Source: Nemania diffusa (Eukaryota > Ascomycota > Sordariomycetes > Xylariales > Xylariaceae). From it: a stretch of DNA of 64,000 nt. The notes under the pieces are model-generated. The model was not told where the DNA came from and did no database searches. It saw only the letters and a list, made by a program, of their open reading frames with translations. Positions 31,491-63,060 of the stretch are shown here, one piece after another (within the stretch, counting starts at the first letter, position 1; every line of letters begins with the position of its first letter). The position numbers and the translations under genes are program-made. The DNA is taken from the NCBI GenBank assembly GCA_038501195.1, contig JBBPUQ010000005.1:3348001-3412000 (forward strand). The letters run 5' to 3'.

Positions 31491-31853
31491 ATTGTAGGCT
31501 ACAATGATTAATTGTAGGCTACAATGATTAATTGTAGGCTACACTGATTGATTGTAGGCTACAATTACTTGTTATAAGTTATTGCAACTTGACATTTAAA
31601 CTTAAGTTTGATTGTAGGCTACAATTAATCGTTGTAGGCTACAATGAGTGATTGTAGGCTACAATCAAATGTTATAAGTTATTACAACTTGACATTTAAA
31701 GCCAAGCTTGATTGTAGGCTACAATCACTCATTGTAGCCTACAATCACTTATTGTAGCCTACAATCAAACTTAACCTTAAGGTTAAATTGCAATTGCTTA
31801 TTGTAAGCTGTAAGTTTGATTGTAGGCTACAATGATTGATTGTAGCCTACAAT
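31491..31853. repeat. palindrome array A (15-bp ATTGTAGGCTACAAT class)
   Basis: There are about twelve copies of ATTGTAG(G/C)CTACAAT or close variants. Within clusters the copies start exactly 20 bp apart (31491, 31511, 31531, 31551; 31611, 31631, 31651; 31711, 31731, 31751), and the first three clusters are joined by 60-bp steps. Linkers such as TTATAAGTTATTGCAACTTG and AACTTGACATTTAAA occur twice. It lies between two convergent genes. Confidence 0.95.
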
Positions 31854-31859
31854 GTACAA

Positions 31860-31940
31860 TACCGGCTATTATATCGTACGTGCGAGGTATGTAACAAAAG
31901 CGCACTTCAGCTTCCAGGTCTCGAGTAAGGCTCATGCTTC
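31860..31940 (+). repeat. shared array-adjacent block, copy at array A
   Basis: This contains CCGGCTATTATATCGTACG, then TGTAACAAAAGCGCACTTC and GGTCTCGAGTAAGGCTCA. The same ordered strings occur at 51260-51370, at 63110-63225 (inverted), and in shorter form at 43325-43385. It directly abuts the end of array A. Confidence 0.75.
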
Positions 31941-32378
31941 TTCAATATATACATTTAACTAATTCAAGCAAGCCTGTTGAGTGAATAAACAATTAAATAT
32001 TGCAGCTATATCTACTTTATTAATAGTTAGGTCTTAGACCGTGAAGCACATATACATATAGTGAAACGAAGCATGTAACACACACACACTACGCACTTTA
32101 AAGGACTAACCACTGTCACTTCTAGAGATCTGAGGCTAAAGAAAACAGTAAATAGGTAATGCAAACGTATATTGAGAAGTAGCAGACCCCCGAAAAGGCC
32201 GCTAAGAGGCGTGACTCTCTGTAAGAAGTGCTAGCTTCAGCTAACTATCTTAAATAAAGAAAAACTAGGACTCGATAACCTAATCAATCTAATCCCCATA
32301 CGGTCAGGTCACCCACACCGTCTCAATAGCTTGTCCAATTGCTTCTTGATTGTTTTAGAAGTCTTGGCCGTGTGACAT

Positions 32379-34529
32379 TTATAGTAAAAGATGTTTGTCT
32401 TTGTCAAACTTACTCCGTATCCGCCATTCAACGTAAACCTTTGTAGGGACTATTAAGAGATTATTAACGATAGGCTTATCGTCAGCAATAGCCATGTCGA
32501 AATATATCGCAAATACTAAGGGAGCTTTTCCTTCTTTAGAAATCGTCATACTGCGGGATAAAGGCAAAGTGTTTAACAGGTCTGGGCTGAGACGGTAAAC
32601 ATGGTTAGAGCATGTTCCAAAGGCCCTGTAGCTGCTATACATGGTCCGTAATACCACGAGCTGTTCTGGAAACGCGTCTAGAAGCTGGTGAATAATGGCT
32701 TCGTAGCAGGTGTTTACGTGCCCCTCGGGGTCTGGCATGTTTTTTGCTATAAATGGAGCCCCCCCTACGTGACATTTTTGGAGCATTCGCTTCTGGTCAC
32801 TGAGAATGCTTTCGGCAAAGGCCGGGGTCGCGCATATATGATCCGTGAGACTAAACCAGGGTTTCTTGTAATGATCTTGATGCCTGTAGGTTTTATCGAT
32901 GAGGTCGAAGATCAACATGAATAGCCATGGCGCGCCTTTATCCAACCACGAATGCAAATGGCTTGGAAAGGCAGCATTGATGCGTTTGGATATGATCTGG
33001 TCTGTACTTTCGTTTTCTTCTTCGTTTTCTTCGGGATCGAGATTGATCAAAATTCCAACGCCGCCTGGCCGAGGACGAAGCAAAGCCATCAAACGACACA
33101 GGGCACTCGTAGTGTCTATTGTGACTACACTGCCATCAGGCGGGTAATCTAGTCCTGCCTCTAGCCAGCAGAAGCCCACGTCGAGCCTATCATTCCGAAC
33201 CATGAGGTAAAAGGTCTTTATGACGCGGCGATCTCGGAGAGTATAGTAGACGGTGGTACGATCCGGGTTAGGCGTCTCATTTAAAAGCGCTAGGTTCACG
33301 AGCCTTAGGAGGCAGACGGAAGCCCGCTCTATCGTAGGCCAGTTCAGATGATGTTCCAAATAGGGCAGCGGAACCTTTTCCAATATCCCAATGATCAAGA
33401 ATAGGCTGACGAATGGGTCGACCAACAGCTCTCGCCTAGGTTCCGACTTCTCTCCTGGTAGTCGAAACTGGCACAAGAACGGGGTAGATTCCCTGGTCGC
33501 ATGCCTCATGAGGACATGGTGGCAGTACTCCATCTCGCCGAGACACATGGCGCTCCGGACCGTAGGGAGGAACCAATGATCCTCGCTGAAGACTGGCCTC
33601 TCTTGCGGATCGATGCATATAATTGCAGCAAGTCCGGGGATCTCGCAATCTAAGGTGGCGATCCCTGTCGTCACGAAGAAGAGCACACACCGGGTGAATT
33701 GTTGCGCTTGATACGCCGACTGCTGTTGATCAACGCAGGTAAGCGGACAAATAACCCACGATTCTAAGATATGCTTCGGCAACAAGCTCGGAAAGGTCGT
33801 GCAATTGTCCAGGGAGCAAGCAATAACTACGGAAGGGCGTGTCGCAGTCTTTGATATAGTATCGAGTTCTGATACGAGTGCGTCGACTATTATTTTGTCG
33901 CGGCGGTCACTATATCCGGGGCCTTTAGAGTCGCCGGGGTCTTGGAGCTCTACTCTACGCAGCACTGGTTGAACGCCGCGTGGGACATCCGAGGTCGACT
34001 CGCCATGCCATACTATAGGGCTCGGCTGGAGAAGGCACATTCGTACCCAGGTTGAGGTGCTATTGGCACGCGAGGCCCATTCTGGGAGAGCGGCGTGGAC
34101 CGAGCGATCCCATGCGCACAAGTCGGGGAATAAGGTATCGACGATTACGACGTATCTTTTACGCGTCTTTAGCCCCAGCTTCGACTCGCTGTATAGGAAT
34201 CCCGCCGCCGCCTTGACATCGATCTGAACCATGTCTTGGGGCTGACCCTGAGACGCCTCGGCAGACTGTTGAGATCTTTCTCGCTGCGCATTTTTATATT
34301 TTTGCCACGTTAGAATTGCCTCTTTTAAGACTTTGGCTTTCTGCGTCGTTGCTGTGAGAACGACGAAATCGCTAGGTATCTCTCGGTTTTTCGACCATTC
34401 TACCCAAAACGACAAAATAAGAGGGATTTTGGATGCCTCGCATCCTGGAAAGGATCTTGACAAACATCCTGCCCTCTGGTCTTTCATCATTTCACCTAAG
34501 ATAGGTGGAAATTGGATTGGATTCTCCAT
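32379..34529 (-). CDS. catalytically dead DExH-helicase-like protein, 716 residues
   Basis: A single frame from ATG. The order of segments follows a superfamily-2 DExH helicase: PGCEASKIPLIL (28-39) at the Walker A place, FVVLTATTQKAKVL (55-68) as motif Ia, YVVIVDTLFPDL (126-137) at the DExH place, RMCLLQPSP (163-171) as motif III, PSVVIACSLDNC as motif IV, and CVLFFVTTGIATLDCEIPGL (281-300) as motif V. A helical ERASVCLLRLVNLALL segment near 400 resembles the winged-helix part. The Walker Lys and the DExH Glu are missing, so ATP hydrolysis is not expected. Fold assignment is by eye. A decayed 5' copy lies at 18815-18985. Confidence 0.55.
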   Translation of the reverse strand: MENPIQFPPILGEMMKDQRAGCLSRSFPGCEASKIPLILSFWVEWSKNREIPSDFVVLTATTQKAKVLKEAILTWQKYKNAQRERSQQSAEASQGQPQDMVQIDVKAAAGFLYSESKLGLKTRKRYVVIVDTLFPDLCAWDRSVHAALPEWASRANSTSTWVRMCLLQPSPIVWHGESTSDVPRGVQPVLRRVELQDPGDSKGPGYSDRRDKIIVDALVSELDTISKTATRPSVVIACSLDNCTTFPSLLPKHILESWVICPLTCVDQQQSAYQAQQFTRCVLFFVTTGIATLDCEIPGLAAIICIDPQERPVFSEDHWFLPTVRSAMCLGEMEYCHHVLMRHATRESTPFLCQFRLPGEKSEPRRELLVDPFVSLFLIIGILEKVPLPYLEHHLNWPTIERASVCLLRLVNLALLNETPNPDRTTVYYTLRDRRVIKTFYLMVRNDRLDVGFCWLEAGLDYPPDGSVVTIDTTSALCRLMALLRPRPGGVGILINLDPEENEEENESTDQIISKRINAAFPSHLHSWLDKGAPWLFMLIFDLIDKTYRHQDHYKKPWFSLTDHICATPAFAESILSDQKRMLQKCHVGGAPFIAKNMPDPEGHVNTCYEAIIHQLLDAFPEQLVVLRTMYSSYRAFGTCSNHVYRLSPDLLNTLPLSRSMTISKEGKAPLVFAIYFDMAIADDKPIVNNLLIVPTKVYVEWRIRSKFDKDKHLLL

Positions 34530-34740
34530 CTAAATAGCCTGTTAGCTGCTTTTTCAATGCAAATCTGGTGTGTATATATATGCGCGTGTGTGTTTGTGTG
34601 AAGCATATGTATATACCTTTTTTTCTAATGCGAAAGTGTTGTTCGTGGGCTAAGTTCAGTTTGTTCAATGGATTTTGCAGCTTTGTTTCTTCCAAGTATT
34701 AATGAGAAGTTGTTGTGTATAGATAGACCTACATATGTGA

Positions 34741-35719: not shown

Positions 35720-35765
35720 CACCATTAAAAACCCACTACTCCTCTTGTGGGAGGTGGAACGGCGA
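35720..35765 (-). terminator. shared 3' hairpin/T-tract element, copy 3
   Basis: In the minus sense GTTCCACCTCCCACAAG is followed by AGGAGTAGTGGGTTTTTAATGG. It lies about 190 bases after the stop of the 452-residue gene. The stem is weaker than in copies 1 and 2, but the flanking T-run and TGG match. Confidence 0.55.
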
Positions 35766-35943
35766 AAAGGGCCCCTTTTATTCAAGGGACCCCTCTGCCA
35801 GGAGCCCGAGCTGTGCTGGGCCCGGAGGTGAAGGTCGTAGGGCGTGGCATGCAGGACGGACCGCAGCTAACAACGACCCTTGACATTAAACCAGAAACGA
35901 GATAGCGCGTGGCTTGATCTATAACTTTAATTCGACAACTTAC

Positions 35944-37302
35944 TCATTCTTTTTTATTATCCAGCAATGATGTAAGCTGCGACATCAATGCGATAGTCTC
36001 GGCACGTAGCCTGTTCTGTCTCTCGATCTCTGCCGTCTCCAGCTCGATCTTCCTGGTATCGGCGCGTACCTGATCGAGGAGGATGTCAAGTTCGCTGAGC
36101 TTATCCTCTACGATGGAGAGGTCGTTCTTCAACTTTGTGAACTTGGCCTGGAAGCCGCCATGGTTGGCGTCGCTCGTCGCCTGCAAGAAAGCAGAGCGCT
36201 GGTACAGGTTGTGTCGCGTGGCCTCTAGGTTCTCCCGCAGAAAGGGGCAATTCGCCAGGACGTAGTTGCGATCGTCCGGCCCGACACCCCTCCCGACCCT
36301 GTTGCCGCCCTGCACGACGTTATAGCCGTCCTGGCTGATCAGCGACGACGCGAGGAGCGTCACCAGCATCTCGGCCGCCCGGAGCTGGCCGTAGTCCCAC
36401 ACCCGCAAGACGGGCACGGTGGTCACCTCGGGTGTGAGGTCCATCTCCTTGAGCACGCACAGGACCAGGCCGAACGTGTACGTGGTATAGACCAAGGAGT
36501 CGCTCCTCGCCGGGTTGGGATGGTGGGCCACCACGCGCTCGTTGATGTTGTCGGCGCAGCCCACCATGGAAGGTAGGGAGATCTGCCACGCCTCCCTATC
36601 CGCGTCGCTGCCGCCCCTGGCGACGGCACACCGGGACTGGAGCATATGGATCATCCTCCGCAACCGGCGACAGGCGACGGGGCCGCTGATAAAACGAGGC
36701 TGCAGCTTAGGCATGTCGCTTGGCTTGAGCCCGTATTGACTGTCGATGCTCGCCACCTTCTCGAACCGGCTCTTCTCTTTGGGAGAAAAGGTGCTCAGGC
36801 TCGCGTCGGGGTTCTTCTCGAATTGTTCGAACACGTAGACGTAAGTCAACAGCCAACTCACCAGCGACTCGGTCTCGTGGCAGTTCAGGCCGCGGCCTTG
36901 GCGGCCCTCGATGCTGATCTGGGCGATGTAGATGCCCGGGCCATCCCCGTTGTAGGTGATCGGGCGTTGCGCCCTGGGCCTAGACGGGTGAAACTCGGCG
37001 GCTATGGTGCCGAGGAGGATGGGGCCCATGACCTGTCTCGGTATGCCGTGGAGGGTGCTCAGCATGACCCAGTCTTTTGTGTGGTCTAGCAAGATCGAGA
37101 TGGCAGTCGTGTCCGTCTGGACGTTGTCATCTATGAAGTCGTCTCTCGAGATGAGCCCCTTCAGGCGAACCCATATCTCGTAATACGAGCTATTCTCGTG
37201 AAAGGCCGCAAGGAGGCCGAGCCTATAATTGTTCATGGCAGGGAACTCGGGGGAGGCGGGGATTCCGCGTCCGGCTTCCCACTGAGGGATGGTAAATGAC
37301 AT
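35944..37302 (-). CDS. unknown protein with C-terminal coiled coil, 452 residues
   Basis: A single ATG-led frame with strongly GC-biased third positions. Residues 1-370 look globular, with segments such as YEIWVRLKGLISRDDF, DTTAISILLDHTKDWVML, SWLLTYVYVFEQFE and WDYGQLRAAEMLVTLLASSL. Residues about 385-450 are a heptad-rich helix (LKNDLSIVEDKLSELDILLD, then IELETAEIERQNRLRAETIA), predicting a coiled coil that could give oligomers. No signal peptide or catalytic motif is seen, and I do not recognise the family. Neighbours are a MITE-like element on its 3' side and a divergent promoter on its 5' side. Confidence 0.65.
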   Translation of the reverse strand: MSFTIPQWEAGRGIPASPEFPAMNNYRLGLLAAFHENSSYYEIWVRLKGLISRDDFIDDNVQTDTTAISILLDHTKDWVMLSTLHGIPRQVMGPILLGTIAAEFHPSRPRAQRPITYNGDGPGIYIAQISIEGRQGRGLNCHETESLVSWLLTYVYVFEQFEKNPDASLSTFSPKEKSRFEKVASIDSQYGLKPSDMPKLQPRFISGPVACRRLRRMIHMLQSRCAVARGGSDADREAWQISLPSMVGCADNINERVVAHHPNPARSDSLVYTTYTFGLVLCVLKEMDLTPEVTTVPVLRVWDYGQLRAAEMLVTLLASSLISQDGYNVVQGGNRVGRGVGPDDRNYVLANCPFLRENLEATRHNLYQRSAFLQATSDANHGGFQAKFTKLKNDLSIVEDKLSELDILLDQVRADTRKIELETAEIERQNRLRAETIALMSQLTSLLDNKKE

Positions 37303-38165
37303 GATATTATCGATTCACAAGGCTATTTGAGATATTGTCTCTGCTACCTAGTATATAGATATATTATCGTCTTATTGCGGGCGCTATAGTAGTATAAGAT
37401 GTCTTGTTTTTAGTTTCTTATACAGCTCTTTGCTCTTCACAATAAAACGACAGAGAGAAAAGTCGGAGTCGAGAAATGCAAGTGTCGCAATTCCGGGCGC
37501 TATATGCCTGCCTGCTACCTGCTCGTCTACTTCTACTCATCTACTTCTACCCGTCTACTTCCTTACTTCCAATGTTCCTGCCGCTTTTTTACACAAATAC
37601 GGATAGGTAGCACATAGGCAGCACCAATGAGAGGCATTTCCCAAGACTTGAAACAAGGCTAAGGTAGATTTCAGTAGCCACTGCCTTGCTAACATGTTTC
37701 CAAGGTCACTTGAGGCAGGTACGGTGTGCCACTACATGTACCAGTCCTAGTCACTGAATTAGGTACGCAATAGACGTATATTAAACACAATAAGTACCTA
37801 AGTGATATATTAGGTACCTACTTCAGTATAGAAGGTGTCGACATACACTTGTAGGTAGGCAAATAAGCACTCAGGTACCTGCCTGCCTGTACCTACATAT
37901 ACCTCTTTGCCTACCCGCCAACTTGCCTACCCGCCTACTTGCCTACCCGCCTACTTGCCTACCTACCTACAGCTTAATAGCCGTACTCTGTCTACTAAGT
38001 CCAGCGCACCCTAGGTTGTACGCTTGCTCTTATAAGCGCGTCGCAGACTTTTCCCGTTCAAGTAATTTATCTGCCAGGACTTCAACATAACAAATCATAT
38101 TTTCTTTCCGAGAACGCTACCTCAACTACTTAGATATACTCTAAACAAGAGTACCTACCTACAAC
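37303..38165. promoter_or_regulatory. divergent promoter with 16-bp tandem repeats
   Basis: This lies between the 452-residue gene (minus) and the 172-residue gene (plus). At 37905-37970 the unit CTTGCCTACCCGCCTA repeats about four times. TAGGTACCTA-type palindromes are at about 37793-37885. Confidence 0.5.
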
Positions 38166-38684: not shown

Positions 38685-38686
38685 GA

Positions 38687-39678: not shown

Positions 39679-40240
39679 GTGAGTTTATCCGCAATTTCAA
39701 GCACGGATGTCTCGATAAATAACGAATTGATTAGCATGTCTGCGACTTCATCTTTAGCGCTGTACACGTCCATATCTCCTCGTCGACATAGTTATCTTGT
39801 ACAAGTCTATCAGGCAATAAAGTCACAGCTAACACGCTTCCGAGACAACACGAGTTCTAGTAACTTAGAAGCGCCTGCTCGTCTCATTGCCGCCACAGCG
39901 CACGTCCAGCTTAGAATATTCGAACTTTTATTACAGGCCGGAGCAGACGTAGACTTTGCTCTGTCATTCGATACCGCTATTCAGAGATCCCTCAAGAGCT
40001 CTGGGCCTTGTAATCCAGCAAGGCATTAGAAGCCGATTCTCTAGGCTGTAAGTTTCGAACCTAAACAGTCAAATTCTAAAATAACCGTCAACAACAACAT
40101 TTTAAAGCCTCTGCTCCGTCATGGGGCCAACGTCGAGGAAACAGATCACGACGGCCAAACCTCGTTGCACTACGCAAGCGCGCTTGGTTCGTTAGAAATC
40201 ATCGCCTTGTTCCCCGCGTTACAAGACGTTAAATAATTTA
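39679..40240 (+). pseudogene. ankyrin-repeat relic
   Basis: The frame to 40029 encodes PARLIAATAHVQLRIFELLL and QAGADVDFAL, and a different frame near 40097-40237 encodes LLRHGANVEETDHDGQTSLH followed by YASALGSLEIIALFPALQ. These are ankyrin units, close in style to SDGYSALHYASANCSTRAAA in the intact protein at 57140-59140. A good GTAAGT donor at about 40049 and TTTTAAAG before the second part hint at an intron, but the first frame already stops before it. An inactive remnant is the simplest reading. Confidence 0.5.
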
Positions 40241-40839
40241 AACAGGATAGACTAAATCTACTACAATACGACAAATGTTTCTTTATATTAGCATCAGAGA
40301 AGCTCACAATATAACGTGCTATGCCTAGAAATTTATAACTATACCTCGAACTTACCCTATCTCATAGTTGCTGGTATGAATATGTAAGTTAAAAGGGCCT
40401 TCTAACATCTTAGTACGCGTTAAGATGTATCTTATTTTAATCCATTAAGTTTAAAGCTCATTTTTCATCGTTGTTTATAATCTAGAACCGTTACTCATTC
40501 AGAATATAAATAGTTAATTAGCTTTATATTAAACAAATGAACCAGCTTCATCAAAGCCCTTATAGTATTACGAAGTTAAGCTGATTAGTTGCCGTATTAA
40601 GCTTGACATACTTATCTACATCCTATATAGCTACCCAAGTACATGTATATAGATGAGGAGGTTAACAAGTACCTACCTAGGTAGATAAGTGCCTAGAGAC
40701 TTAGGAGCTAAGGTAGGTATGCAGGAAGGTAGGGTCTAAGAGGTAGTTAGGGCTAATATTATAATGCTGCTAGTGAGTGACCTGACACTATCCCGCACCC
40801 CGCTTCTTAACTCTTCGCAACTGCTCCCTCTCTCTATCC

Positions 40840-40965
40840 TTCACTTTCACCATCACCTTCACCATTATCATCGCCATCGTCATCATCATCTCCATCCCCA
40901 TCACCGTCGCCGTCGCCGTCGCCATCGCCATCGTCATCGTCATCGCCATCGCCTTCAACAAAAAA
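40840..40965. repeat. CATCACC/CGTCGC low-complexity tract
   Basis: A run of trinucleotide-like units (CACCAT, CATCGC, GTCGCC) lies about 150-270 bases upstream of the 684-residue gene. Frames through it on both strands are artefacts. The rest of 40240-41109 is AT-rich with no gene. Confidence 0.8.
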
Positions 40966-41109
40966 AACAATAGTAAGTAGTTGTATAAGGCTGTATATCC
41001 TTCCTGTCTCTTCTATAAACCTCAATAGCCCAGCTTCAGTGATTGTTCTAACCAGATACTACTATAGGAAGCTATTTATTTCTCAATAGAGAAATAATAG
41101 TCATAGAAA

Positions 41110-43324: not shown

Positions 43325-43390
43325 CAACGCGCAATAAAAGCGCACCGGTGGCTAGGCCTTGAGTAAGGCTCACGCTCCCCCGTGCGATGC
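43325..43390 (+). repeat. shared array-adjacent block, diverged copy
   Basis: AATAAAAGCGCAC, then GGCTAGGCCTTGAGTAAGG and CTCACGCTC correspond to the blocks next to arrays A, C and G. Here it stands about 430 bp before array B. Confidence 0.55.
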
Positions 43391-43816: not shown

Positions 43817-44108
43817 ATTGTAACCTACAATGGGTTATTGTAGTCTACAATAAGTTATTATAGCAATGTTTACAGTCAAGGTTAATTGTAGCCTACAATG
43901 AGTGATTGTAGCCTACAATGGGCAATTGTAGCCTACAATCAAATTTAACTTTAACAATTATTTGCTAGCAACTTATTGTAGGTTACAATTACCCATTGTA
44001 GGCTACAATGGGTGATTGTAGGCTACAATTAACCTTGACTGTAAACATTGCTATAATAACTTATTGTAGACTTATTGTAGGCTACAATGACCCATTGTAG
44101 GTTACAAT
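43817..44108. repeat. palindrome array B with a 46-bp perfect inverted repeat
   Basis: About ten copies of the 15-bp palindrome at 20-bp steps in clusters. The segments 43854-43899 and 44015-44060 are exact reverse complements over 46 bp, and similarity continues inward with few changes, so most of the array could form a cruciform. It is flanked by direct repeats GGGACTATTTATGCAC at about 43772 and 44210. It lies between two convergent genes. Confidence 0.95.
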
Positions 44109-51235: not shown

Positions 51236-51259
51236 AGAGGGTTGTACAAGTTTGATTGT

Positions 51260-51372
51260 CTAAGCGCTATTCGAGTCCTGGCCGCCTCGCAGAGTAGCCG
51301 GCTACTATATTGTACAGCAATATACGTGACGAAAGCGCACTCGGCTTCTAGGTCTCGAGTAGGGTGCTTTTT
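51260..51372 (+). repeat. shared array-adjacent block, full copy at array C
   Basis: GCGCTATTCGAGTCCTGG, then GTAGCCGGCTACTAT, TTGTACAGC, ACGAAAGCGCACTCGGCTTC and GGTCTCGAGTA. The inverted copy at 63110-63225 matches over the whole length; array A keeps the second half. It ends about 11 bases before array C. Confidence 0.85.
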
Positions 51373-51382
51373 AACTTGGTTG

Positions 51383-51757
51383 ATTGCAGGCTACAATGAC
51401 CTATTGTAGGCTACAATCACTTATTGTAGCCTGCAATCAAACTCGACTTTAAATGTCAAGTTGCAATATTTGATTGTAAGCTACAATGAGTGATTGTAGC
51501 CTACAATAGGTCATTGTAGCCTATAATCAAACTCGACTCTAAGTGTCAAATTGCAATAACTGATTGTAGGCTACAATGAGTGATTGTAGCCTATAATCAC
51601 TCATTGTAGCTTACAATCAAACTCGACTTTAAAGGTCAAGTTGTAGCAATAGATTGTAGGCTACAATGACCTATTGTAGGCTACAATCAAACCTGACTTT
51701 AAAGGTCAAGTTGCAGCAACAGATTGTAGGCTACAATCACTCATTGTAGCCTACAAT
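51383..51757. repeat. palindrome array C with a higher-order repeat of about 90 bp
   Basis: Thirteen palindromes in groups of 3, 3, 3, 2 and 2. Each group has exact 20-bp spacing, and groups are separated by a shared linker of the form CAAACTCGACTTTAAAGGTC, AAGTTGCAATA. The linker is itself a near palindrome (CTTGACTTTAAAGGTCAAG). The five-base spacers are mainly GAGTG, CACTC, GACCT and AGGTC. It lies between two same-direction genes. Confidence 0.95.
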
Positions 51758-51952
51758 TATAATCTACCTATGTTTAAGCTACGCAGTAAATACCTAGGTA
51801 CTTATTTACCTACCTAGGTACTTATTTACCTACATAGTAAGTACTCATCTAAACATCTACCTAAGGTACACGATATTTAACTTTACACTCTGTTTAAAGC
51901 CTCTGAGTTTTGCAGATATAATACCGACCGTACAGCCCGACAAGCGAAGCCG

Positions 51953-53623
51953 ATGTCGAACCTTGAACCACAAAAGGATGAGGTCCTTCAACAAGAGGAC
52001 AAGGTCTTTCAACAAGATGACCTTCGACTCGTTTTCAAATATCACCCACATCTAATTGAAAATAAGCTCGTCAACTACTGGCCTACGCTGCTCCATTGGA
52101 AGCAAGTTCAAGATGGCCAACAAGTCAACATAGAGTCGCACAGCGTCATGGCCGTAGTCATGTTCTTGCGCCGCATGTTCTCTTTCTGGGGCGGAAAAGA
52201 TCTCTCGGGCGGAAAACCGACGCCTCTCAAACAACTAGCATGGAAGACAAACCCCTTGTCTAAGAATACCAACCCCGAAGAGATGCGGGCCCTATTTAGA
52301 GAACTAGGGCTCTCTACTACCGGGGAGCAAAATCCCACATTCGAGGACATCTTCAATCACGACATGATGGCAGAGGTCTGGGGGACTCCCTCCATGACCC
52401 TATGCTGTCGGAAGTGTCAACTGCGGAAAAAAGGGACAGATAGACCGGCATTGATCAATGTAAACGCGTCTACTACGCTCTGCAAGCTCGAGTTGGTAAC
52501 ACTCGAGGGTTCCACTCCTATCGCAGAAAGGATGAAGCTGCGTGTTAACGAGAACATGACGCCAAAAGTGAACCTTTTATGCAATTTCCCACCCTTCATA
52601 CGGGTCAAGTACCAAGCCGTTAAGGAAACCTCCAAGACACCCCAGAGATTCTCCGATCTTCGCTACTTCCGGCTTCAAGGGTTGACAATCGTGAACGAGA
52701 CCGATGTCGTGCATCAAGAGCACGGCTACGTCCTCATAGCTTGTTACCTAAAGCCTAACGAGGGGGCCAGGACCGGCGAGGTGAGGTTGTATTCGAATGA
52801 CGGGCGACCTATATTCCCGATCAATGCACGCGAAGGAGCCCAGCACCTACATAATCACGATTCTCTAATCAAAATAGGGGACCCAGGATTGGACTTCATT
52901 CTATTATATGGAAAAACAATGAAATTTGAAGAGCACCCGGACTGTTCCGAGCTAGTAAGCCCTTCGGCGCAACTAGACAACAACTTGCACGGATTAAAAA
53001 ACCGTCTGGTCGACGAGGCCGATAGCTTAGGCCCTGGCCTAGAACATGTACCAACATTAGAAGCATCATCCGTTCTCAGTTTGCCGGTGCGTCTCTTGTC
53101 CCAGCCGCAAACCCCTGCGGTCACGACTCCGGATAGGGCTGTCTTACGACCTGGTGTATCTACCCAGGGCGGGGAGGACACCCAAGGCGAACGCCAGACA
53201 GGCGAGGCCCCAAGAAGCTCCGTGCTAACGGGGGCGGTGGGGAGCAAGCGAGCTTATGGCGGGGATGGCGATGAGCCCTCTCCAAAGCGCAATCCGCCAG
53301 CGCACTTGGGGGGTCTCGGAAACACAGGTTACGCCGGTAGTATGCCCTCAAGACCACCTCTAGATTCGCGTCAACATGCAACCGTAGGCGGGAGACCGCG
53401 TCTAAATTTGGCGGAAGATATGCGACCGGGGCAACAACCCTTAACGCAGCATAACAATAATGAGTTGAATCAGACGTCTCAGCAGCCTCGAGGTCGCGGC
53501 GGACGTGGTGGACGCGGTGGACGCGGCGGGCGCGGCGGGCGCGGTGGGCGTGGCGGACGCAGTGGCAGAAGCCCCTTAAATCCCCAAGCAGATTTGTTTA
53601 GAGCTTCTCAGAGAGGCCATTAA
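51953..53623 (+). CDS. unknown protein with Cys motif and C-terminal RGG tail, 556 residues
   Basis: A single ATG-led frame. Residues about 1-330 look globular. They include MTLCCRKCQLRKKG (a CxxC-like cluster), FPPFIRVKYQAVKE, LRYFRLQGLTIVN and HGYVLIACYLKP, an order that loosely recalls the C-terminal half of ubiquitin-specific protease folds, but no catalytic residues can be assigned. Residues 340-500 are disordered, with a bipartite basic signal (GSKRAYGGDGDEPSPKRNP). Residues about 505-545 are a run of RGG/GRGGRGG, a classic RNA-binding and condensate-forming tail. Nuclear RNA association is inferred. Arrays C and D lie immediately on either side. Confidence 0.65.
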   Translation: MSNLEPQKDEVLQQEDKVFQQDDLRLVFKYHPHLIENKLVNYWPTLLHWKQVQDGQQVNIESHSVMAVVMFLRRMFSFWGGKDLSGGKPTPLKQLAWKTNPLSKNTNPEEMRALFRELGLSTTGEQNPTFEDIFNHDMMAEVWGTPSMTLCCRKCQLRKKGTDRPALINVNASTTLCKLELVTLEGSTPIAERMKLRVNENMTPKVNLLCNFPPFIRVKYQAVKETSKTPQRFSDLRYFRLQGLTIVNETDVVHQEHGYVLIACYLKPNEGARTGEVRLYSNDGRPIFPINAREGAQHLHNHDSLIKIGDPGLDFILLYGKTMKFEEHPDCSELVSPSAQLDNNLHGLKNRLVDEADSLGPGLEHVPTLEASSVLSLPVRLLSQPQTPAVTTPDRAVLRPGVSTQGGEDTQGERQTGEAPRSSVLTGAVGSKRAYGGDGDEPSPKRNPPAHLGGLGNTGYAGSMPSRPPLDSRQHATVGGRPRLNLAEDMRPGQQPLTQHNNNELNQTSQQPRGRGGRGGRGGRGGRGGRGGRGGRSGRSPLNPQADLFRASQRGH

Positions 53624-53676: not shown

Positions 53677-53885
53677 ATTGTATGCTACAATCACTCATTG
53701 TATGCTACAATCACTAATTGTAGCCTACAATTAAATTTAAACTAAAAAGTTAATAGCTAACAACTTATTGTAGCCTACAATCACTTATTATAGGCTACAA
53801 TGAGTGATTGTAGGCTATAATCAAACTTGACCTTTAAAATTAAGTTGCAGTAACCTATAATCACCTATTGTAGCTTATAATCAAA
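53677..53885. repeat. palindrome array D
   Basis: About eight copies, several with single changes (ATTGTATGCTACAAT twice, ATTATAGGCTACAAT, ATTGTAGCTTATAAT). Linkers ATTAAATTTAAACT and TCAAACTTGACCTTTAAAAT match linkers of arrays A and F. It starts about 50 bases after the stop of the RGG-tail gene. Confidence 0.9.
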
Positions 53886-54165
53886 CTTGACTTCAAAGGT
53901 TAAACGTGCTGGCGTGCAAACACCGGGTGCATAAGCGAGTTGTATGTAATACGTTTTTATTAAGGCTAAGAACACAGAGGGTAAACGCCAAGGTGGGTGG
54001 CAAGCATATTGTGTGAGGCGCAGGTAAGGCACTTGGTGCTTTGCGGCTTAAGCGCAGTTGTTTGATTTTGGGCGCAGCTATAAAACAATCAGGTGTTTGT
54101 ATGGTTCGCGGCTTAGCTATTTGGTTGCAGCTTATCCGCTTGCCTAAGTGAAAAGGTCGAGTTTG

Positions 54166-54560
54166 ATTGTAACCTACAATGGGTCATTGTAACCTACAAT
54201 GGGTCATTGTAACCTACAATGGGTGATTGTAGGTTACAATGAGCTATTAGTAAGTAGCTGTTAAAGTTAAGTTTAATTGTAAGCTACAATGAGTGATTGT
54301 AGGCTACAATGAGTGATTGTATGCTACAATCAAACTTGACTTTAAAAGTCAGGTTGTAATAGCTTACAATGACCTATTGTAGCCTACAATTACCTATTGT
54401 AGCCTACAATTAAACTTAACTTTAACAGCTACTTACTAATAGCTCATTGTAACCTACAATCACCCATTGTAGGTTACAATGAAACTTGACTTTAAAGATC
54501 AAGTTGCAATAACGATCAAGTTGCAATAACCTATTGTAGGCTATAATCACCTATTATAAC
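54166..54560. repeat. palindrome array E with a 76-bp perfect inverted repeat
   Basis: It starts with three identical ATTGTAACCTACAAT palindromes at 20-bp steps. The segments 54206-54281 and 54405-54480 are exact reverse complements over 76 bp, around a 123-bp centre that is itself made of palindromes. The linker GAGCTATTAGTAAGTAGCTG with TTAAAGTTAAGTTTA is shared with array G. Confidence 0.95.
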
Positions 54561-54692
54561 TACATTGAACACTAAGCTTTCCCGAATATTTGACTAGGCT
54601 ATAGTGTCGCTGTGCTTTTCACCTGCAACATTTCAACGTACAACATTGTGCCAACGCATAGTTTAAACAACGTATACTGCTAGAACAATATA

Positions 54693-56294
54693 ATGAGTTC
54701 AAGGTCTTCTTATAAAGCGTTGGCGGAACAGTCGAGGACATGGTTAAGCACTGATAGGCCAAAGGTCTCGCGCCCGACCATGGAAGACCTAGTTCCGCAG
54801 CCTCAGTTTGGGGCGCTGTGGTCAGAAGAAGACGAGGCCGGCCTCGCCAGCCGAGTCGATCTAGAGGATCTCCGGATCCTGAAGCCCGAGAACGTAACCA
54901 TCTCGATGATCAAGCTTTGGAAGGTGAGCCTGCGCATATGGAGAAGGCTCCCACCGTACTTCATCTGTCGGTCTAGTCACCTAGTATATGCCGGCGGTGC
55001 GCAGACGCGACCGCCGCAGCCCGACTCGTGCGGCAACCTTGACTGGGATGACCAGTTCTGTAGCATACTAACCAAGCTGCTCACTCACCCGGCGTGGTAC
55101 GGCCAGGAGTGGTTCTTCGTGGCGGCGCTGCAGCTGGCCGTCATATGTCGCACTGACGACAGGAGGCCATGGCCGCTCGCGCTCAATGCGTGCCCGGATC
55201 CGTTCTGCGCGACCCTGCAGGGCACGGCACTGCGGCTCGCCGGGTCTAGCATCAGGCGCATCTTTGATGAGGCGGTCGAAGAGGCCGATACGGAGGGCCA
55301 GGCGCCGTCGCAGTACCGCCTCACGCTATCCGCTATAGTAGATAGCATAGCGAGGATAGGGATGCCGGCCGTGTCGCTCGCGCCCACGGCCGACCTAGTC
55401 GCGGAACCGTACGCGGTGACCGCGGAGGACTTGAGCTCTCTCGTGTCCGTCCTCGACGCGTTGGACGTGAATGGGGTAGTTCTCTACTACGACTGTCAGA
55501 CGATTTCCCGTATGTATTGGGCGAGTGGCAGCAGCCTCGTGAACGGCCCTGATCTCCCGCTCGTGGGTGATATGCCTAACCTGCTAAGGGCGTTCCTGAT
55601 GTCGGAGCGCAGGGAGGACATGATTGCTCGGCGCCTGCAGTCGCCCCAGCCTCGACAGGAGAAGCTCCCGCAGACAGTAGGCAGGAAACGTCGAAGGTCG
55701 AAGAGGCATGATGAGATCGTGGAGGTTCCTAACTCCTTCCCGGTGGAATATTCCGATGACAGTGAGACTGATTCCGACGCCGTACCGGAACTCCAATTGC
55801 CGGGCGGCCCGAACTCGCCCTCACCATCTCGTCGAGGGCGGTTTCGCTTGTTTAGCCGTGACAGCCGCATCGAAGCCGATATAGAAGCTGGTGAAGATGC
55901 CGGCGTAGACGCCGATATAGAGGCTGATATAGATGTCGATAGAGACGTTGGCGGAGACGCTGGCGGAGACGCTGGTGCCGACGCTGGTGTCGACGCTAAT
56001 GTAGATGAGAATGTTCTCTATCCAATTATGCTAACTCCTCCGTCGGGACAAATCCCCGTCGTAACTAGCCCGACGCCTCCGTCTGATAGGGGTAGCGTTC
56101 CCGATACACAGGAGCCTAATCCCCTAGATAACGTGGGAGATTCAGGCTCGGAATTAGATTTCGCCTATCGGCCTCTAGAAGAGTCGCCAGAGCCACCTCC
56201 AGAAGTCGTCGTCATTTCCTCAAGCCAGTCGAGGGCTGGCGGCTCGCGGGGTTCAACCGTGCCCGAGTCCCCGATTCTAGGCCACATCGGTTGA
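54693..56294 (+). CDS. unknown nuclear-type protein, 533 residues, paralogue of the 698-residue protein
   Basis: A single ATG-led frame. Residues about 80-175 align with residues 95-190 of the protein at 24030-26126: WRRLPPYFIC, HPAWY, LAVICRTDDRRPWPL and DPFCATL against WHRFPTEIIC, HAAWS, RFVCICNSRDSRPWDL and DPFFEAF. A second shared stretch is DLSSLVSVLDALDVNGVVLY (near 245-265). As in the relative, a basic patch (GRKRRRSKRHDE) and acidic/Ser stretch (YSDDSETDSD) follow, then an Asp/Gly/Ala repeat (GDAGGDAGADAGVDANVD). Identity is low, so the duplication is old. Function unknown; nuclear localisation inferred. Confidence 0.7.
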   Translation: MSSRSSYKALAEQSRTWLSTDRPKVSRPTMEDLVPQPQFGALWSEEDEAGLASRVDLEDLRILKPENVTISMIKLWKVSLRIWRRLPPYFICRSSHLVYAGGAQTRPPQPDSCGNLDWDDQFCSILTKLLTHPAWYGQEWFFVAALQLAVICRTDDRRPWPLALNACPDPFCATLQGTALRLAGSSIRRIFDEAVEEADTEGQAPSQYRLTLSAIVDSIARIGMPAVSLAPTADLVAEPYAVTAEDLSSLVSVLDALDVNGVVLYYDCQTISRMYWASGSSLVNGPDLPLVGDMPNLLRAFLMSERREDMIARRLQSPQPRQEKLPQTVGRKRRRSKRHDEIVEVPNSFPVEYSDDSETDSDAVPELQLPGGPNSPSPSRRGRFRLFSRDSRIEADIEAGEDAGVDADIEADIDVDRDVGGDAGGDAGADAGVDANVDENVLYPIMLTPPSGQIPVVTSPTPPSDRGSVPDTQEPNPLDNVGDSGSELDFAYRPLEESPEPPPEVVVISSSQSRAGGSRGSTVPESPILGHIG

Positions 56295-57139: not shown

Positions 57140-59140
57140 CTAGAGACGTAGTAGGGCCCTCATCCTCTCTGGGCAATCCTCTTGTTCGGGAAGTAGTGGG
57201 TTTAGCTGCCAATCCTCTGGCTTCCAGTTTGCCCCATGGTTGCGCAGCATTTCCACTATCTTGATCATGGACTCATCGTCTGGATCTCTTCCATATCCGA
57301 TGAAGGGATTGCGATCCGAATACATGCTGATCGCCACCACGAGTGGTGTACAGGGCGCTGGGTCGAGGTTTGGATTTGCCTCATGCTTTAGTAGAAGACC
57401 AACCAACTCCACGTCTCCTTTCCGGCAAGCAAATGCCAGCGGACTATGCTGGTTCCGATCCAATACGTTGACGTCGGCGCCAGACTTGATTAACAACTCT
57501 GCGAAGCTCTCTCGCGTGTTGACCAGATCTCCGCATTGCTGAGCATCACACACCGTGATCAGCATGGGTCTTGCTAGCCTGCCGTCCACGTCCCTGAGAC
57601 GGCCATGGGTGACCATCTCGGAAAGAGGGGCGGCGGAGAGAAGGACAGCAGCCGCACGCGTCGAGCAGTTTGCCGAAGCATAATGCAGTGCGCTGTACCC
57701 GTCGCTATCTCTGCCGGTAGGTGATGCTCCTTTTAAAAGGAAGAACTTTATGTATGGTTCGATTGGAAACGCATCGTCAAACTCATTTTTGCACAGAGCG
57801 GTCAGGGCAGAGTCTGCCTCACCAAGCTGCACCCCTTCTTCGCCCTCAAAGCCCTCTGCGATGTCTTCCTTGAAGCATTCTACGTAGCGCCTCGCGGTAC
57901 TCTCGAGTTTTGCCCCATTTTCGATTAATAGAGTAAATAACGCTTCATACCCGTGATAAAAGTCCAGATCCTTCCAATCTGAGGTTGTGAGCCCCCAATT
58001 GGGTGAAAGATAGTGGAGGGCAGATATTAGACATTCGGTTGTAGTCTTGATATCTGGTTTATTGGCATAACGTAGGAATACGCGAGCAGTTTTAAGCATA
58101 TATGGCGTTGGTGCGCAATGGCAAAGCTCGGTAAAGTGTTCCTTGTAGAGTGTGTCAATAGAGTCCGCTCTTGAGAGGACGAACTTTAATTTATCCTTTC
58201 GTTTGGGGCTCAAGAACACGATTCCTTTTGCCTCCCATTTGTAGATGCAAGTTCCGACTAAGAAAAGAAACGGGTGTATCGGCTCATCTAAAGAAGGGCC
58301 AATGGTAAAAGGGCCAATGGTAGGTGCCCCAGCGTCGTTGAGGATTCTCAAGACACTTACTGGTGTATATTTGTTTGCGAAGGCCACGGTCATCACCGGA
58401 ACATCTCCAATAGTTGGGTAACTTGACGAAATTGCTTTCACGTCGGCTGCGGAGGCTATCAACGTGTTGACAATCTGTTTTGTGAGTCTGTTTTCGGTGT
58501 GCGAAGGGACGCCGGCCAACTGTGGGTTCACAGCCCAATGAAGAGGTTGGAAGGATGCGATAGATGGGATCCCTTTCTTGTACAACCGGGTATCGGTAAT
58601 CTTGATTTTGTCGGATGACCATTGTGTCTGGGCCGCAGTTGGGGTAAAGTTGGCATTTGCATTTCTTTCTAGTAGAGCCTTAATCGCCTCGAGCTGACGG
58701 AAAGCCACCGCTGTGCTCAGCGGGGTACACGCATGGTCACGTCCATGTCGACGATCGTCAGACCTGCTGGTCTTGACGCATACTCGGTGGCTAAAGACGT
58801 GGTTTACGGACATACCCCGGTCTAGCATCTCGTAGATGATACTAATAAGGCCGTGGGCGCAGGCCCATCGCAAAGCACGTGGATGACGGCTGCTAAGGTC
58901 CTCTGTATAGATGATATCTCTGATTAGTGCATACATGCCCTTGCATGTAGACATCAGGTGATACTTGTCGGACAAGCCGATGTCTTTCACGATCTGAAGC
59001 ACAGTTTCCGCCGGCAGATCTCCAAGGCTCATGTGACTAGAGGGTTCTATTGTTGCTAAGGTTGTCGTATGGTACTGTGGTTGCGTTCCGTAACCGGGAC
59101 CGAGGCCCTGGGCCAGGCGGCTCGGGGCGCTGGAACTCAT
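57140..59140 (-). CDS. F-box and ankyrin-repeat protein, 666 residues
   Basis: ATG at 59140, one frame. After a short N-terminal extension, residues about 37-75 (SLGDLPAETVLQIVKDIGLS, then KYHLMSTCKGMYALIRDI) form an F-box. Ankyrin units follow across the rest, such as ALRWACAHGLISIIYEMLDR, TPLSTAVAFRQLEAIKALLE, GYSALHYASANCSTRAAA, LLIKSGADVNVLDRNQHSPL and ELVGLLLKHEANPN. The family joins Skp1-based ubiquitin ligases through the F-box and uses the repeats for substrate contact. F-box/ankyrin fusions are common in ascomycetes, often in expanded, fast-evolving sets. Two relics of related genes occur at 19096-20051 and 39679-40240. Confidence 0.85.
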   Translation of the reverse strand: MSSSAPSRLAQGLGPGYGTQPQYHTTTLATIEPSSHMSLGDLPAETVLQIVKDIGLSDKYHLMSTCKGMYALIRDIIYTEDLSSRHPRALRWACAHGLISIIYEMLDRGMSVNHVFSHRVCVKTSRSDDRRHGRDHACTPLSTAVAFRQLEAIKALLERNANANFTPTAAQTQWSSDKIKITDTRLYKKGIPSIASFQPLHWAVNPQLAGVPSHTENRLTKQIVNTLIASAADVKAISSSYPTIGDVPVMTVAFANKYTPVSVLRILNDAGAPTIGPFTIGPSLDEPIHPFLFLVGTCIYKWEAKGIVFLSPKRKDKLKFVLSRADSIDTLYKEHFTELCHCAPTPYMLKTARVFLRYANKPDIKTTTECLISALHYLSPNWGLTTSDWKDLDFYHGYEALFTLLIENGAKLESTARRYVECFKEDIAEGFEGEEGVQLGEADSALTALCKNEFDDAFPIEPYIKFFLLKGASPTGRDSDGYSALHYASANCSTRAAAVLLSAAPLSEMVTHGRLRDVDGRLARPMLITVCDAQQCGDLVNTRESFAELLIKSGADVNVLDRNQHSPLAFACRKGDVELVGLLLKHEANPNLDPAPCTPLVVAISMYSDRNPFIGYGRDPDDESMIKIVEMLRNHGANWKPEDWQLNPLLPEQEDCPERMRALLRL

Positions 59141-61800
59141 ATTGAGAATCTAGCCTGTTGAACTTGATTAGAATTGCTCAGAGTAGAAAATATAGATCTG
59201 CGTACTCTGGAGTAAAAGGTTGTTATGATACACTATTTCTTCCGACAGATTGTGTGTGCGCGTGTGTGTGAAAGTAGAAAGGTAAGGGGAGATGTGTGTA
59301 TAGAAAGGTAAGTGTTAAACTGAGGGAGAGAAGGATGAAGATGTGTGTTTGTGTGAAAGTGTTAGGGAGGTACTTAACGGTTAGTAGAAGAGTGCAGACC
59401 AAATAGGGGTACCTACCTACCTAAGGTAGGTAGAATTAGCTGCTGCATGTAGGCATAGGCAGGTCTTTACTTACCTAAAGTATATCCAACTAAACAACTA
59501 AGTAACCTGCCTGTTTAATGCTTGCCTAGGTACGTAAGTACTAGCCATATACCTACCTACATGGTAGGCATATCAGTATAGAGGCCTACATAGATAGCTA
59601 TATACCTAGGTACAAAAGTATAGAGGTAAATCAAGACATGAGGGAAGTCCTGAGGCATGCTAAGCACTCCAAGTACTTTATTCAGATCGATAGAGTCTTA
59701 CATCAATCTCTCTACACATTGAACCATTAACGCGAGATCTTTAAAGGCCTTGGGAAAAGGGGAGAGGAGGGCACCTAAAGGCGAAACGACGAGAAAGACG
59801 CCTTTTCCCTCTCCAAGATTAGCCCGAAGATCTCTCCGTAATTACAGTCATTATGAGGCAGTTTTTAACTATTTCAGGTCATATATAGTATTGTGTATAA
59901 CTCAGAGTTTTTCTCAATGAACCGGCGATAGTTAAGCCTCTCTATCGCATACGAGATGCTAGAAAGTATTGTGTTAAATAGTCTTGACACATTGAATATG
60001 GAGCATGTGGCAGCTAGTAAAAGCGGTGTAGTATAGATCTTGGTAACAATATTGATTTATTTCCCCCTTCTAGGTCCCTGCCAGAGATCAGAGGTCTTGT
60101 ATACCATGAATAGCACCGCTTTATTAGGTATAGTTACATTATCTCCTAATAGAGTACCTCTTCCGCTAATCTTTCGTCCTCAGAACATGATACAACCGGC
60201 GAGGTGAAGTGAGGCCTTCATAACCAATCTATCGAGTTGGCACTAAGTCAGTTGTTAGCAGGGCCCCCCGAAACCAGGTGAGGTCCTAAGGGTAGCTTGT
60301 CACCAGTGCCTAACCACTACCTCACACTAGCCATGCAAGGTTGGCTGGTTGGTTGGTGGTTGGTATATTTGACGTCGGGGGGCTTCTGTGAAGCAGAGAC
60401 CCCAGAGCCTCCCGAAGGGCATCGAGGGCGTGCTAGGCTAAGATCCACGCTTGAACCAAAACAGGCTACCTATCTAGCAACTCTTGACCATCGTCGATTT
60501 GCCGAAACCGGCTTCTCACTGCTTCTTCCCTTCTCTGTGCAAGCGAGTGCTCAGCTATATGTAGTCGATCGCGTAGCAATACTCTCCCGTATTGTCAATA
60601 GCCTGTAGGGCTCAGGTGTGTTCTCTGCGGATCTAGCCCGCAGTATTCCTGGCGCCGAACGCCTGTAAACAAAAGGAAAACGTGATTATAAGTGTAGTTG
60701 TCGAATGTAGTTGCGCCGCACCCCCTATTTATCCCTTCTCTGTACCCTTATCCGTAGCCTCGCCTTTTTCGTTTTATATATCCCCCGTTTACACTAGCTA
60801 TGCAACAGCCCTACAACGGAGCAGAGCCTCGCATATAGCCGGACCTAGCCTAGGTCCTTTAAGCAACTTGCCAAAGTCCTTGACAGAAGCCCTGGGCCCC
60901 TAGTTGTTGCTTAACAGGCCCCTCGTAGGCCCTCGACAACACCTTAGACACCACTTAAACTCGTAGGCCTAAAGCCCAAGGTCCTCAAAATACCTCGCCA
61001 GGAACAAGTCGAAAAGGCTTCGAGAAAAGGAGTAAATACGTCTTTGTTGGGTCTTCGTGTGATTCGAACGTCGTCTCGTCGCAATGGATAATTTTCACAG
61101 GCGGGGTGCCTTGTAGCCTCGACCAGGCTAGGTCTCTTTCTCGAAGGCGGTCGGCGATGATGGTCGTTGATGTTGTAGCGATGAAAACACCATAGGTTAA
61201 TGAGAATTGGTCGGAGTTATTCAATTGCCTTTAAGAGCTGAGATGTTATTAATTGCATCATAGTAGAGAGGCTAGACCAAGGGATGATATATACTTATAA
61301 TCGGTGCTTGTTATATACGTTCCTTGCTTCCTCGTCTTGTTGGCTGGTGATCGCCTCACAGATCACTTTGCCGCCTTGTAGCGCGACGTACCTTTCATCT
61401 CGGAGCTGGACTTGAATGGTGAATGGACGGCACAGGACGATGCGCCGAGAGAGCGTAGAAAGAGGACGACCATTCGAGGGGCGCCGTCTATTCCACTAGA
61501 TGGGATCGGTCCAATGATCTTGAAGGCGACTCCCATAGATACAATAATCGACTCGAAACGACTCGTTGTTAGCAAGTAAGCTGGAATCTCATATACCTAC
61601 AAGAGGGCATTTATCGACTTTTGCTAACATTATAGCAATCTTTTAGCAAGGCATGTTTTGTAAAAGGGGTAAGCTAAGGCGCAAAGAAAGCTTGTTAATG
61701 TTGTATTAGCTTAGGTATGTTGCGTGGTTTAAAGCGGTCGGAGAATGCATTACTAACAGTCTCAGATATTACAACGCGGTTATTGCAAATTGACCTTTAA
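59141..61800. other. repeat-rich stretch with possible relics
   Basis: Near 59240-59360 are GTGTGTGAAAG/AGAAAGGTAAG repeats, and at 59400-59610 many TACCTACCTAGGTA motifs. The frame at 60297-60608 has no ATG start and is doubtful. On the minus strand near 61330-61500, one frame reads PFTIQVQLRDERYVALQGGK followed by VICEAITSQQDEEARNVYNK, and 60985-61200 reads IIADRLRERDLAWSRLQGTP. These look protein-like but sit in different frames with stops, so they may be fragments of one dead gene. I cannot name it. Confidence 0.35.
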
Positions 61801-61807
61801 GCAACTT

Positions 61808-62237
61808 ATTGTAGCTTACAATGAGTGATTGTAAGCTACAATGGGTGATTGTAGGCTACAATAAGCTGTTGCACTTAACTTTAGAAGCTAAATTTGATTG
61901 TAGGCTACAATGACCTATTGTAAGCTACAATAAGCTGTTGCATTTAACTTTAAAAGCTAAGTTTGATTGTAGGCTATAATGACCTATTATAGGCTACAAT
62001 GACCTATTATAGGCTACAATCAAACTTGTTACATTTGACCTTTAAAATTAAGTAGCAATAACTCATTATAGACTACAATGACCCATTGTAGCCTACAATC
62101 AAACTTGCAACTTCACTTTAAAACCAAATTTAATTGTAGGCTACAATCACCTATTATAGCCTACAATGAGTTATTGCTACTTAACCTTAAAGGTCAAGTT
62201 TGATTGTAGGCTACAATAAGTGATTGTAGCCTACAAT
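61808..62237. repeat. palindrome array F
   Basis: About fourteen copies in groups of two or three at 20-bp spacing. Linkers such as AAGCTGTTGCATTTAACTTT and AAAGCTAAGTTTGATTG repeat within the array. Variants are mostly single transitions (ATTGTAAGCTACAAT, ATTATAGGCTACAAT, ATTGTAGGCTATAAT). Confidence 0.93.
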
Positions 62238-62376
62238 TAATATCTCGCCTACTAGTATACTACAGAGCCTAGCAAGTGAGATTAAACCAGTGTAGCTAAA
62301 ACAATCTCATAAGGTGTATTAAAGTGAGGCTTGCTCAATGTTCTTTTTCTCTTAGGCTTTTTAAGCGAAAGCGTCT

Positions 62377-62502
62377 CTTGGGCTTAGACGCGCGTGCTTA
62401 AGCTCCAATTGTGTAATTGCTGCTCAGCGCCCAAATGGCTTGGGCTTAAACGCATGCGCTTAAGCTCCAATTGCGCAATTGCTGCTCGGCGCCTAAAATA
62501 GC
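62377..62502. repeat. 62-bp tandem repeat, two copies
   Basis: Both copies begin CTTGGGCTTA.ACGC and contain GCTTAAGCTCCAATTG, TAATTGCTGCTC and GCGCC. Together with a C-homopolymer near 62539-62550 they fill the space between arrays F and G. No gene. Confidence 0.8.
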
Positions 62503-62842
62503 TAGGTGATTGGTTACAATGGGTCGTTATAGGTTACCACCCCCCCCCCCGCGCACTATCTGTCCGCTTAAACCCTACTATACCATTAGGTCAACCGTAT
62601 CTAGCAAGATGAACCAAATGCACGAGGCACGGAAGTTTTATTTAAAGTAGACACGGAGTCACCGAAGACACGACTTAACGGCTTAAGAAGTGAGAATATG
62701 GAGATAGTGCGTGCGACACTGCTACAGGGGTATTAGCTAGCAAGGAGATAGTTTTTTATTAGGGGAGGAAGATGGGCGATGCGCGGTATTGATACCTTTG
62801 GCATTAACCGAATAGGTCGATACGCTGTTAAGGTCAAGTTTG

Positions 62843-63060
62843 ATTGCAGCCTACAATGAGTGATTGTAAGCTACAATAAGTTGTTAGTAAATAGCTGTTA
62901 AAGTTAAGTTTAATTGTAGGCTACAATAGGTCATTGTAGGCTACAATGAGCTGCTAGTAAGTAGCTGTTAAGGTCAAGTTTAATTGTAGGCTACAATTAG
63001 TGATTGTAGGCTACAATGACCCATTGTAGCCTACAATGAGTTGTTAGTAAGTTATTACAG
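62843..63060. repeat. palindrome array G
   Basis: Seven palindromes; linkers AGTAAGTAGCTGTTAA and AAGTTAAGTTTAATTG are the same class as in array E. It is followed at once by the shared block in inverted orientation. Confidence 0.93.

Follow-up and report, generated by a model that had tools for sequence, protein, structure and literature searches.

A 64,000-nucleotide stretch of the genome of the fungus Nemania diffusa (the window; C5:3348001–3412000, where C5 is the contig JBBPUQ010000005.1) carries seven arrays of a 15-bp palindrome, ATTGTAGSCTACAAT (P1), and an eighth array lies just to its right. The palindromes are regularly spaced and confined to a single gene island, and their core is conserved where the spacers between them have diverged. 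A second, paralogous island on another contig (C8) of the same genome (55.6 Mb, 16 contigs) has a different private lattice of sites near related flanking DNA. From these sequence comparisons we favour, at a probability of roughly 45%, the reading that the arrays are rigid lattices of dyad sites that are likely to be coated by a dedicated dimeric DNA-binding protein and to act as shared control or boundary hubs of the island.

P1 occurs in 39 exact copies in the window and in none of 100 dinucleotide shuffles (largest count 0). Searching with up to three mismatches gave 76 window matches; after an isolated three-mismatch match at 31440 was removed, 75 sites remained, the number that a first-pass annotation of the letters had estimated by eye. 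The start coordinates it gave for seven arrays are all correct, the eighth being outside the window. Together the eight arrays hold 85 sites, of which 40 are exact, 41 carry a single mismatch and 4 a double one. The annotation had also given 20 bp as the spacing within clusters. This holds for 51 of the 77 neighbouring pairs within arrays, but the other 26 gaps measure 48–68 bp (12 of them 50 bp and 6 of them 60 bp). Multiples of 10 bp account for 69 of the 77 spacings, and the remaining eight are off by one to three bases. The suggestion that all sites lie on one face of the DNA holds only approximately: the phase of the longer gaps clusters about as strongly at 9.5 bp as at 10.0 or 10.5 bp. 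These longer gaps hold a second dyad, CTTGACYTTWAARGTCAAG, in 19 of 26 cases at up to five substitutions and in 11 of 26 at up to two. Gap elements are present in both orientations and include exact inverted copies at 43852–43884 and 44030–44062 (100% over 33 nt) and at 54241–54275 and 54411–54445, so that arrays A2 and A5 are each partly symmetric as a whole.

Among the sites, all of which were selected by consensus match, pairwise identity is 0.90 in the palindrome core and 0.46 in the spacer, and mean information is 1.72 bits in core columns and 0.71 bits in the five spacer columns. Both arms vary alike (80/85 at position 4 and 79/85 at position 12; 80 at position 2 and 81 at position 14). 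Genome-wide, all 40 exact copies of P1 lie within C5:3379491–3415086, a stretch of about 36 kb, as do 41 of the 45 one-mismatch copies; the four elsewhere compare with a chance expectation of 4.6 at equal base frequencies. Likewise, 11 of the 14 places in the genome that match the second dyad with up to two mismatches are in the C5 island. This confinement gives no sign that such sites are used elsewhere in the genome, and random scatter, which the first-pass annotation had proposed to look for, was not found. In 60 kb taken from six other places in the genome, no palindrome family of any kind (6-bp arms made up of three or more different bases, loop of 0–3) exceeds 2 copies per 10 kb, compared with 10–24 in window segments from 30 kb onwards.

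The second island came to light when a search with the 456-amino-acid (aa) open reading frame (ORF) w35947 (ORFs are named by their window start coordinate) matched C8:4264166–4265152. It encodes paralogs of w35947 (E = 6e-19) and w51881 (E = 8e-9) and a weak relative of w47259 (E = 2e-4), the proteins of the two islands being about 25% identical, together with a 790-aa ORF that has no detectable relation to the window ORFs. P1 is absent from this island, which has a half-site of its own, ACTTTCTGYG, in two arrays 12.7 kb apart on either side of a four-gene block. Leaving aside the 12,677-bp step from one array to the other, half-sites in the same orientation (++ or −−) stand 32 or 33 bp apart, tail-to-tail pairs (+−) exactly 26 bp apart in eight of eight cases, and −+ pairs 15 bp apart in five of six, the exception being 26 bp. 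Compared across the two arrays, the eight tail-to-tail pairs (three in the left array, five in the right) show 90% and 85% identity in their half-sites and 22% in the 16-bp linkers. The half-site values are partly ascertained, because half-sites were found by consensus; the distances are not. A protein lattice would be expected to combine a fixed distance with a randomised linker. At up to one mismatch, 25 of 29 half-sites in the 40 kb examined fall inside the two arrays, and the head-to-head dyad occurs at four places genome-wide, all in the right array. On the best reading of these sequences, the arrays of each island form a system private to it, which would serve as a docking site for a dedicated protein. 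The binding platform that the first-pass annotation had put forward is accordingly well supported as a prediction, by the conservation of the core over the spacers, by sites private to one gene set and by the independent lattice on C8.

Sensitive blastn between 84 kb from C5 and 40 kb from C8 returned six matches at E ≤ 0.01, all of them outside long ORFs; the coding homologs gave none. Five of the six lie within 180 bp of arrays in both islands (0–81 bp in C5 and 15–177 bp in C8); for the sixth, the distance is about 205 bp to A1 and about 645 bp to the right-hand array of C8. The five near-array matches form two families: F1, beside A1, A3, A7 and the right C8 array (64–78% identity), and F2, to the left of A5 and of the left-hand array on C8 (two blocks, at 72% and 87% identity). 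The three C5 copies of F1 and F2 have no match in 107 kb of control DNA, and the AT-rich tail of the C8 copy of F1 has five weak matches there, in two of ten control stretches. Consensus folding of F1 is weak. On the whole, the array loci appear to have stayed recognisable across the islands at about 25% protein identity, although the arrays themselves differ. The genes that the array modules adjoin differ from one island to the other; in this small sample, that points to autonomous hubs or boundaries rather than gene-specific promoters. By interval type, on our reading of the ORF map, C5 arrays occupy 2/3 convergent, 4/6 tandem and 0/3 divergent intervals, again a small sample.

Table 1. Arrays, flanking elements and ORFs of the C5 island, in window coordinates; L005 is the stretch to the right of the window.
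Feature	Position	Strand	Remark
Array A1, 12 palindromes	31491–31853		between convergent ORF ends
Array A2, 10 palindromes	43817–44108		between convergent ORF ends
Array A3, 13 palindromes	51383–51757		
Array A4, 7 palindromes	53677–53881		
Array A5, 12 palindromes	54166–54547		
Array A6, 14 palindromes	61808–62237		
Array A7, 7 palindromes	62843–63037		
Array A8, 10 palindromes	L005:2782–3086		C5:3414782–3415086, just right of the window
F1 copy, right edge of A1	31847–31995	+	related to C8:4275346–4275488, beside the right C8 array
F1 copy, left of A3	51264–51376	+	
F1 copy, right of A7, inverted	63068–63222	−	
F2, between A4 and A5	53942–54150	+	related to C8:4262293–4262541, left of the left C8 array
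Orphan ORF, 708 aa (w24033)	24033–26156	−	homologous part fused to w51881-like part in Xylaria curta (P0012)
Orphan ORF, 392 aa	29956–31131	+	
Orphan ORF, 716 aa (w32382)	32382–34529	−	95% identical in Hypoxylon argillaceum
Orphan ORF, 456 aa (w35947)	35947–37314	−	paralog at C8:4263983–4265341
Orphan ORF, 685 aa (w41107)	41107–43161	+	N-terminal part fused to w51881-like part in P0009 and P0010
Coiled-coil-like ORF, 548 aa	44373–46016	−	Pfam matches sub-threshold only
Coiled-coil-like ORF, 1166 aa (w47259)	47259–50756	+	weak relative at C8:4266949–4267575
Orphan ORF, 580 aa, RGG-rich tail (w51881)	51881–53620	+	paralog at C8:4271397–4272272
Orphan ORF, 536 aa	54684–56291	+	paralog of 24033–26156
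Ankyrin-repeat ORF, 669 aa	57143–59149	−	

The genes among which the arrays stand are largely without known domains. Pfam made no call over cut-off on the long ORFs between arrays apart from the ankyrin repeats of 57143–59149; NCBIfam, run on nine proteins, yielded nothing that came near cut-off; PHROGs, run on ten, matched the ankyrin ORF alone; and a search of PDB sequences with the 716-aa family returned nothing. No replication protein, transposase or recombinase was recognised among the scanned ORFs, and no core biosynthetic enzyme among the 20 window ORFs scanned. In read-through scans of three intergenic stretches nothing came up beyond a TrAA12-like remnant, pieces of ankyrin and matches under the threshold, and no transcription factor with a known domain was found in these stretches or the scanned ORFs, very short exons and unscanned intervals remaining possible places for one. 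A region without long ORFs holds TrAA12-like and ankyrin remnants, at 40768–41013 (−) and 40093–40209 (+). RGG-rich tails occur in island proteins, and L005:612–2000 and its relative P0003 each combine a CX2CX4HX4C motif with a further Cys/His cluster; a motif of this kind can be read as a zinc knuckle, a call that Pfam does not make. AlphaFold2 gave no usable model of the 716-aa ORF (mean predicted local distance difference test score 35.5) and a model of the 456-aa ORF that scored 63.1, to which no fold in the PDB corresponded at E ≤ 0.001. On visual inspection, two ORFs, the one of 716 aa and the one of 790 aa on C8, resemble degenerate P-loop or superfamily 2 proteins; we do not claim a helicase, as Pfam (for both) and PDB sequences (for the 716-aa family) were empty and their mutual similarity is not significant (z = 1.3). 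Within the 392-aa ORF are three 51-bp repeats (30390–30548). On C8, a coiled-coil gene at 4266949–4269777 (L021/L015) contains 126-bp repeats and is broken up over several frames, through either introns or decay, and an inverted repeat with arms of nearly 90 bp (L015:729–818 and 1111–1198) lies between two island genes.

The C5 island is embedded in a 4.97-Mb contig with ordinary genes (mitochondrial carrier, SRAP) on its left. It probably starts near 18.7 kb, to judge from decayed fragments of w32382, L005:612–2000 and w24033 at 18764–20554 on its left edge; an 11-bp repeat, AAAATAATACA, is present in about eleven copies at 19670–19787. Two paralog pairs lie within the island, 24033–26156 with 54684–56291 and 22550–23530 with L005:612–2000. 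Homology searches were run for w32382, w35947 and w51881 and were limited to the 7,994 to 7,996 candidates with the most words in common, so that family sizes are lower bounds: at least three, five and five proteins, respectively. Among the matches found, 10 of 13 relatives are named Hypoxylon argillaceum, Xylaria, Nemania or Xylariaceae strain, the last three of which we place in the Xylariales, and one (P0009) is labelled Lasiodiplodia mahajangana (Botryosphaeriales) and lies on a 24-kb contig. The nearest proteins are from H. argillaceum, of the order Xylariales, in keeping with the fungal origin assumed at first pass. Island genes recur in these relatives as fusions: L005:612–2000-like with w32382-like in P0003 (X. 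castorea), w24033-like with w51881-like in P0012 (X. curta), and w41107-like with w51881-like in P0009 and P0010 (Nemania abortiva). Through these fusions, four genes of the window and a fifth a little to its right are linked to one another. The H. argillaceum relatives of w32382 and w35947 are on contigs of equal size (546313), as are the X. castorea relatives of w32382 and w51881 (492927), which suggests that each pair is co-located.

We propose that a dimeric protein encoded in the island would bind the array dyads, binder and sites diverging together; that many bound dimers would bring the eight arrays together into a hub; and that this hub would set the expression and the limits of the island, by activation, silencing or insulation. 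Several observations weigh against this. No scanned island ORF, nor any of the three intergenic stretches, has a DNA-binding domain over cut-off, and the one hit that bears such a name, TMF_DNA_bd on ORF 22550–23530, is a sub-threshold coiled-coil match (13.4 bits, with 35 required). Because sites were chosen by consensus match, allowing 3 mismatches for P1 and 2 of 10 for the C8 half-site, their identity is partly ascertained, although 81 of the 85 P1 sites carry at most one mismatch. The A1 copy of F1 weakly matches 27431–27511 and 43333–43376 in the C5 island, away from array edges, and the argument from flanks would be weaker if F1 and F2 were dispersed repeats, for which both islands and the 107 kb of control DNA were searched. 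Finally, the distribution of arrays over interval types does not favour simple promoter control.

Two other readings, which we consider about equally unlikely, survive best beside the hub and lattice model. The first takes the arrays for replication or segregation sites, oriP-like or centromere-like, belonging to an element maintained independently, now or in the past, and bound by an origin-binding protein encoded in the island. Baculovirus genomes carry homologous regions (hrs), to which IE1 binds, at several loci, and the C5 island likewise has repeated palindromes at several autonomous array loci of one unit. PMC6669502 describes hrs as repeated palindromes bound by a protein of the same unit that act as enhancers and putative replication origins, and the title of a reference cited there has the protein binding as a dimer. 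The dyad sites of the arrays, with their fixed and close spacing, resemble hrs and the EBNA1 sites of the Epstein–Barr virus (EBV) oriP, which, according to PMC3798644, are 21 bp centre to centre, EBNA1 and LANA binding cooperatively with looping between site arrays. The C5 dyads share with oriP and the LANA sites of Kaposi's sarcoma-associated herpesvirus a spacing of about two helical turns. Unlike hrs, however, they sit in a fungal chromosome as a 15-bp palindrome at 20-bp spacing with a second dyad, and unlike the herpesvirus sites they form eight chromosomal arrays rather than one origin, with no homologous protein recognised. Scans with Pfam, NCBIfam and PHROGs matched no viral core gene or IE1 among the scanned ORFs, the w35947 family has no relative on a viral contig, and we rejected a viral identity, the ankyrin ORF being the only PHROG match among ten proteins. 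The C5 arrays thus do not appear to be baculovirus-type hrs, which they may at most resemble in how they work; we claim membership in neither the hr nor the EBNA1/LANA class and regard both as the closest working parallels. A replication origin also fits poorly with a large contig bearing ordinary genes and with the lack of a recognised replication protein among those scanned.

In the second reading the arrays serve recombination or transposition, by which gene cassettes would be moved or shuffled. The C8 arrays bracket a four-gene block on both outer sides, the C5 arrays separate modules, relatives carry the island genes in differing fusions, and the left edge of the island holds decayed duplicates. 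Yet the scanned ORFs yielded no transposase or recombinase match, and the arrays do not take the form of single matched ends. Starships are large fungal islands of accessory genes, and we know of no internal palindrome lattice in them. We rejected a Starship identity: neither island contig has a match to the DUF3435 tyrosine-recombinase captain that stands at one end of such an element, all three genome matches returned (from five candidates scored) being on contigs C1 and C10.

Slightly less probable still is a conventional gene cluster in which an ordinary, pathway-specific transcription factor uses the palindromes as operators. Dyad motifs restricted to one cluster usually point to a cluster regulator, as in fungal AflR-type sites, and the island dyad is confined in just this way. 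The likeness ends with the number of sites (85 in eight arrays), the lattice spacing, the placement of two arrays between convergent 3′ ends and of none in the three divergent intervals, and the lack of a biosynthetic enzyme or transcription factor domain over cut-off, TrAA12-like remnant aside. Nor do the scans support a fungal biosynthetic gene cluster, neither a core enzyme nor a known-domain transcription factor having emerged from them.

We give little credence to a role of the arrays as RNA, in which transcribed hairpins or double-stranded RNA would be bound by the RGG and zinc-knuckle-like proteins of the island. Those RGG-rich tails and the CX2CX4HX4C motif would suit it, as would exact inverted gap elements such as those of A2, but 41 of 45 variant sites carry a single change and none of the four double changes is a compensating pair. 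All six Rfam matches overlap arrays and fall below gathering scores, and a tRNA search found none. Neutral minisatellite expansion, for which the tandem periods of 20, 70 and 90 bp detected in the window speak, is the least probable, because divergence is not uniform along the unit as expected of a neutral satellite or minisatellite (core 0.90 against spacer 0.46; C8 half-site 0.85–0.90 against linker 0.22), gap elements run in both orientations, and the second island has conserved half-sites and related flanks.

Viral origins and enhancers are known to carry dimer sites by the dozen in arrays; to our knowledge, no fungal chromosomal gene island has been described that does. Literature searches returned nothing comparable among the matches listed, and of the motif strings only the 11-base core TGTAGGCTACA was matched, in five papers whose titles name no fungus. 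For H. argillaceum, one taxonomy paper came up. Tentatively, and at somewhat less than even odds, the islands may represent an undescribed chromosomal element of the Xylariales, in which fast-evolving orphan proteins, modular enough to fuse in varying pairs, travel with a private lattice, binder and sites diverging together while the flanks stay recognisable; such an element would be a self-governing, perhaps selfish, unit with an hr-like or centromere-like DNA platform within a normal chromosome. With two islands whose flanks are related and whose nearby lattices are not, this genome offers a natural experiment on how binder and site change together. As the gene set has no Pfam match over cut-off apart from ankyrin repeats and yet has parts that are fused in relatives, a whole multi-protein system may be undescribed.

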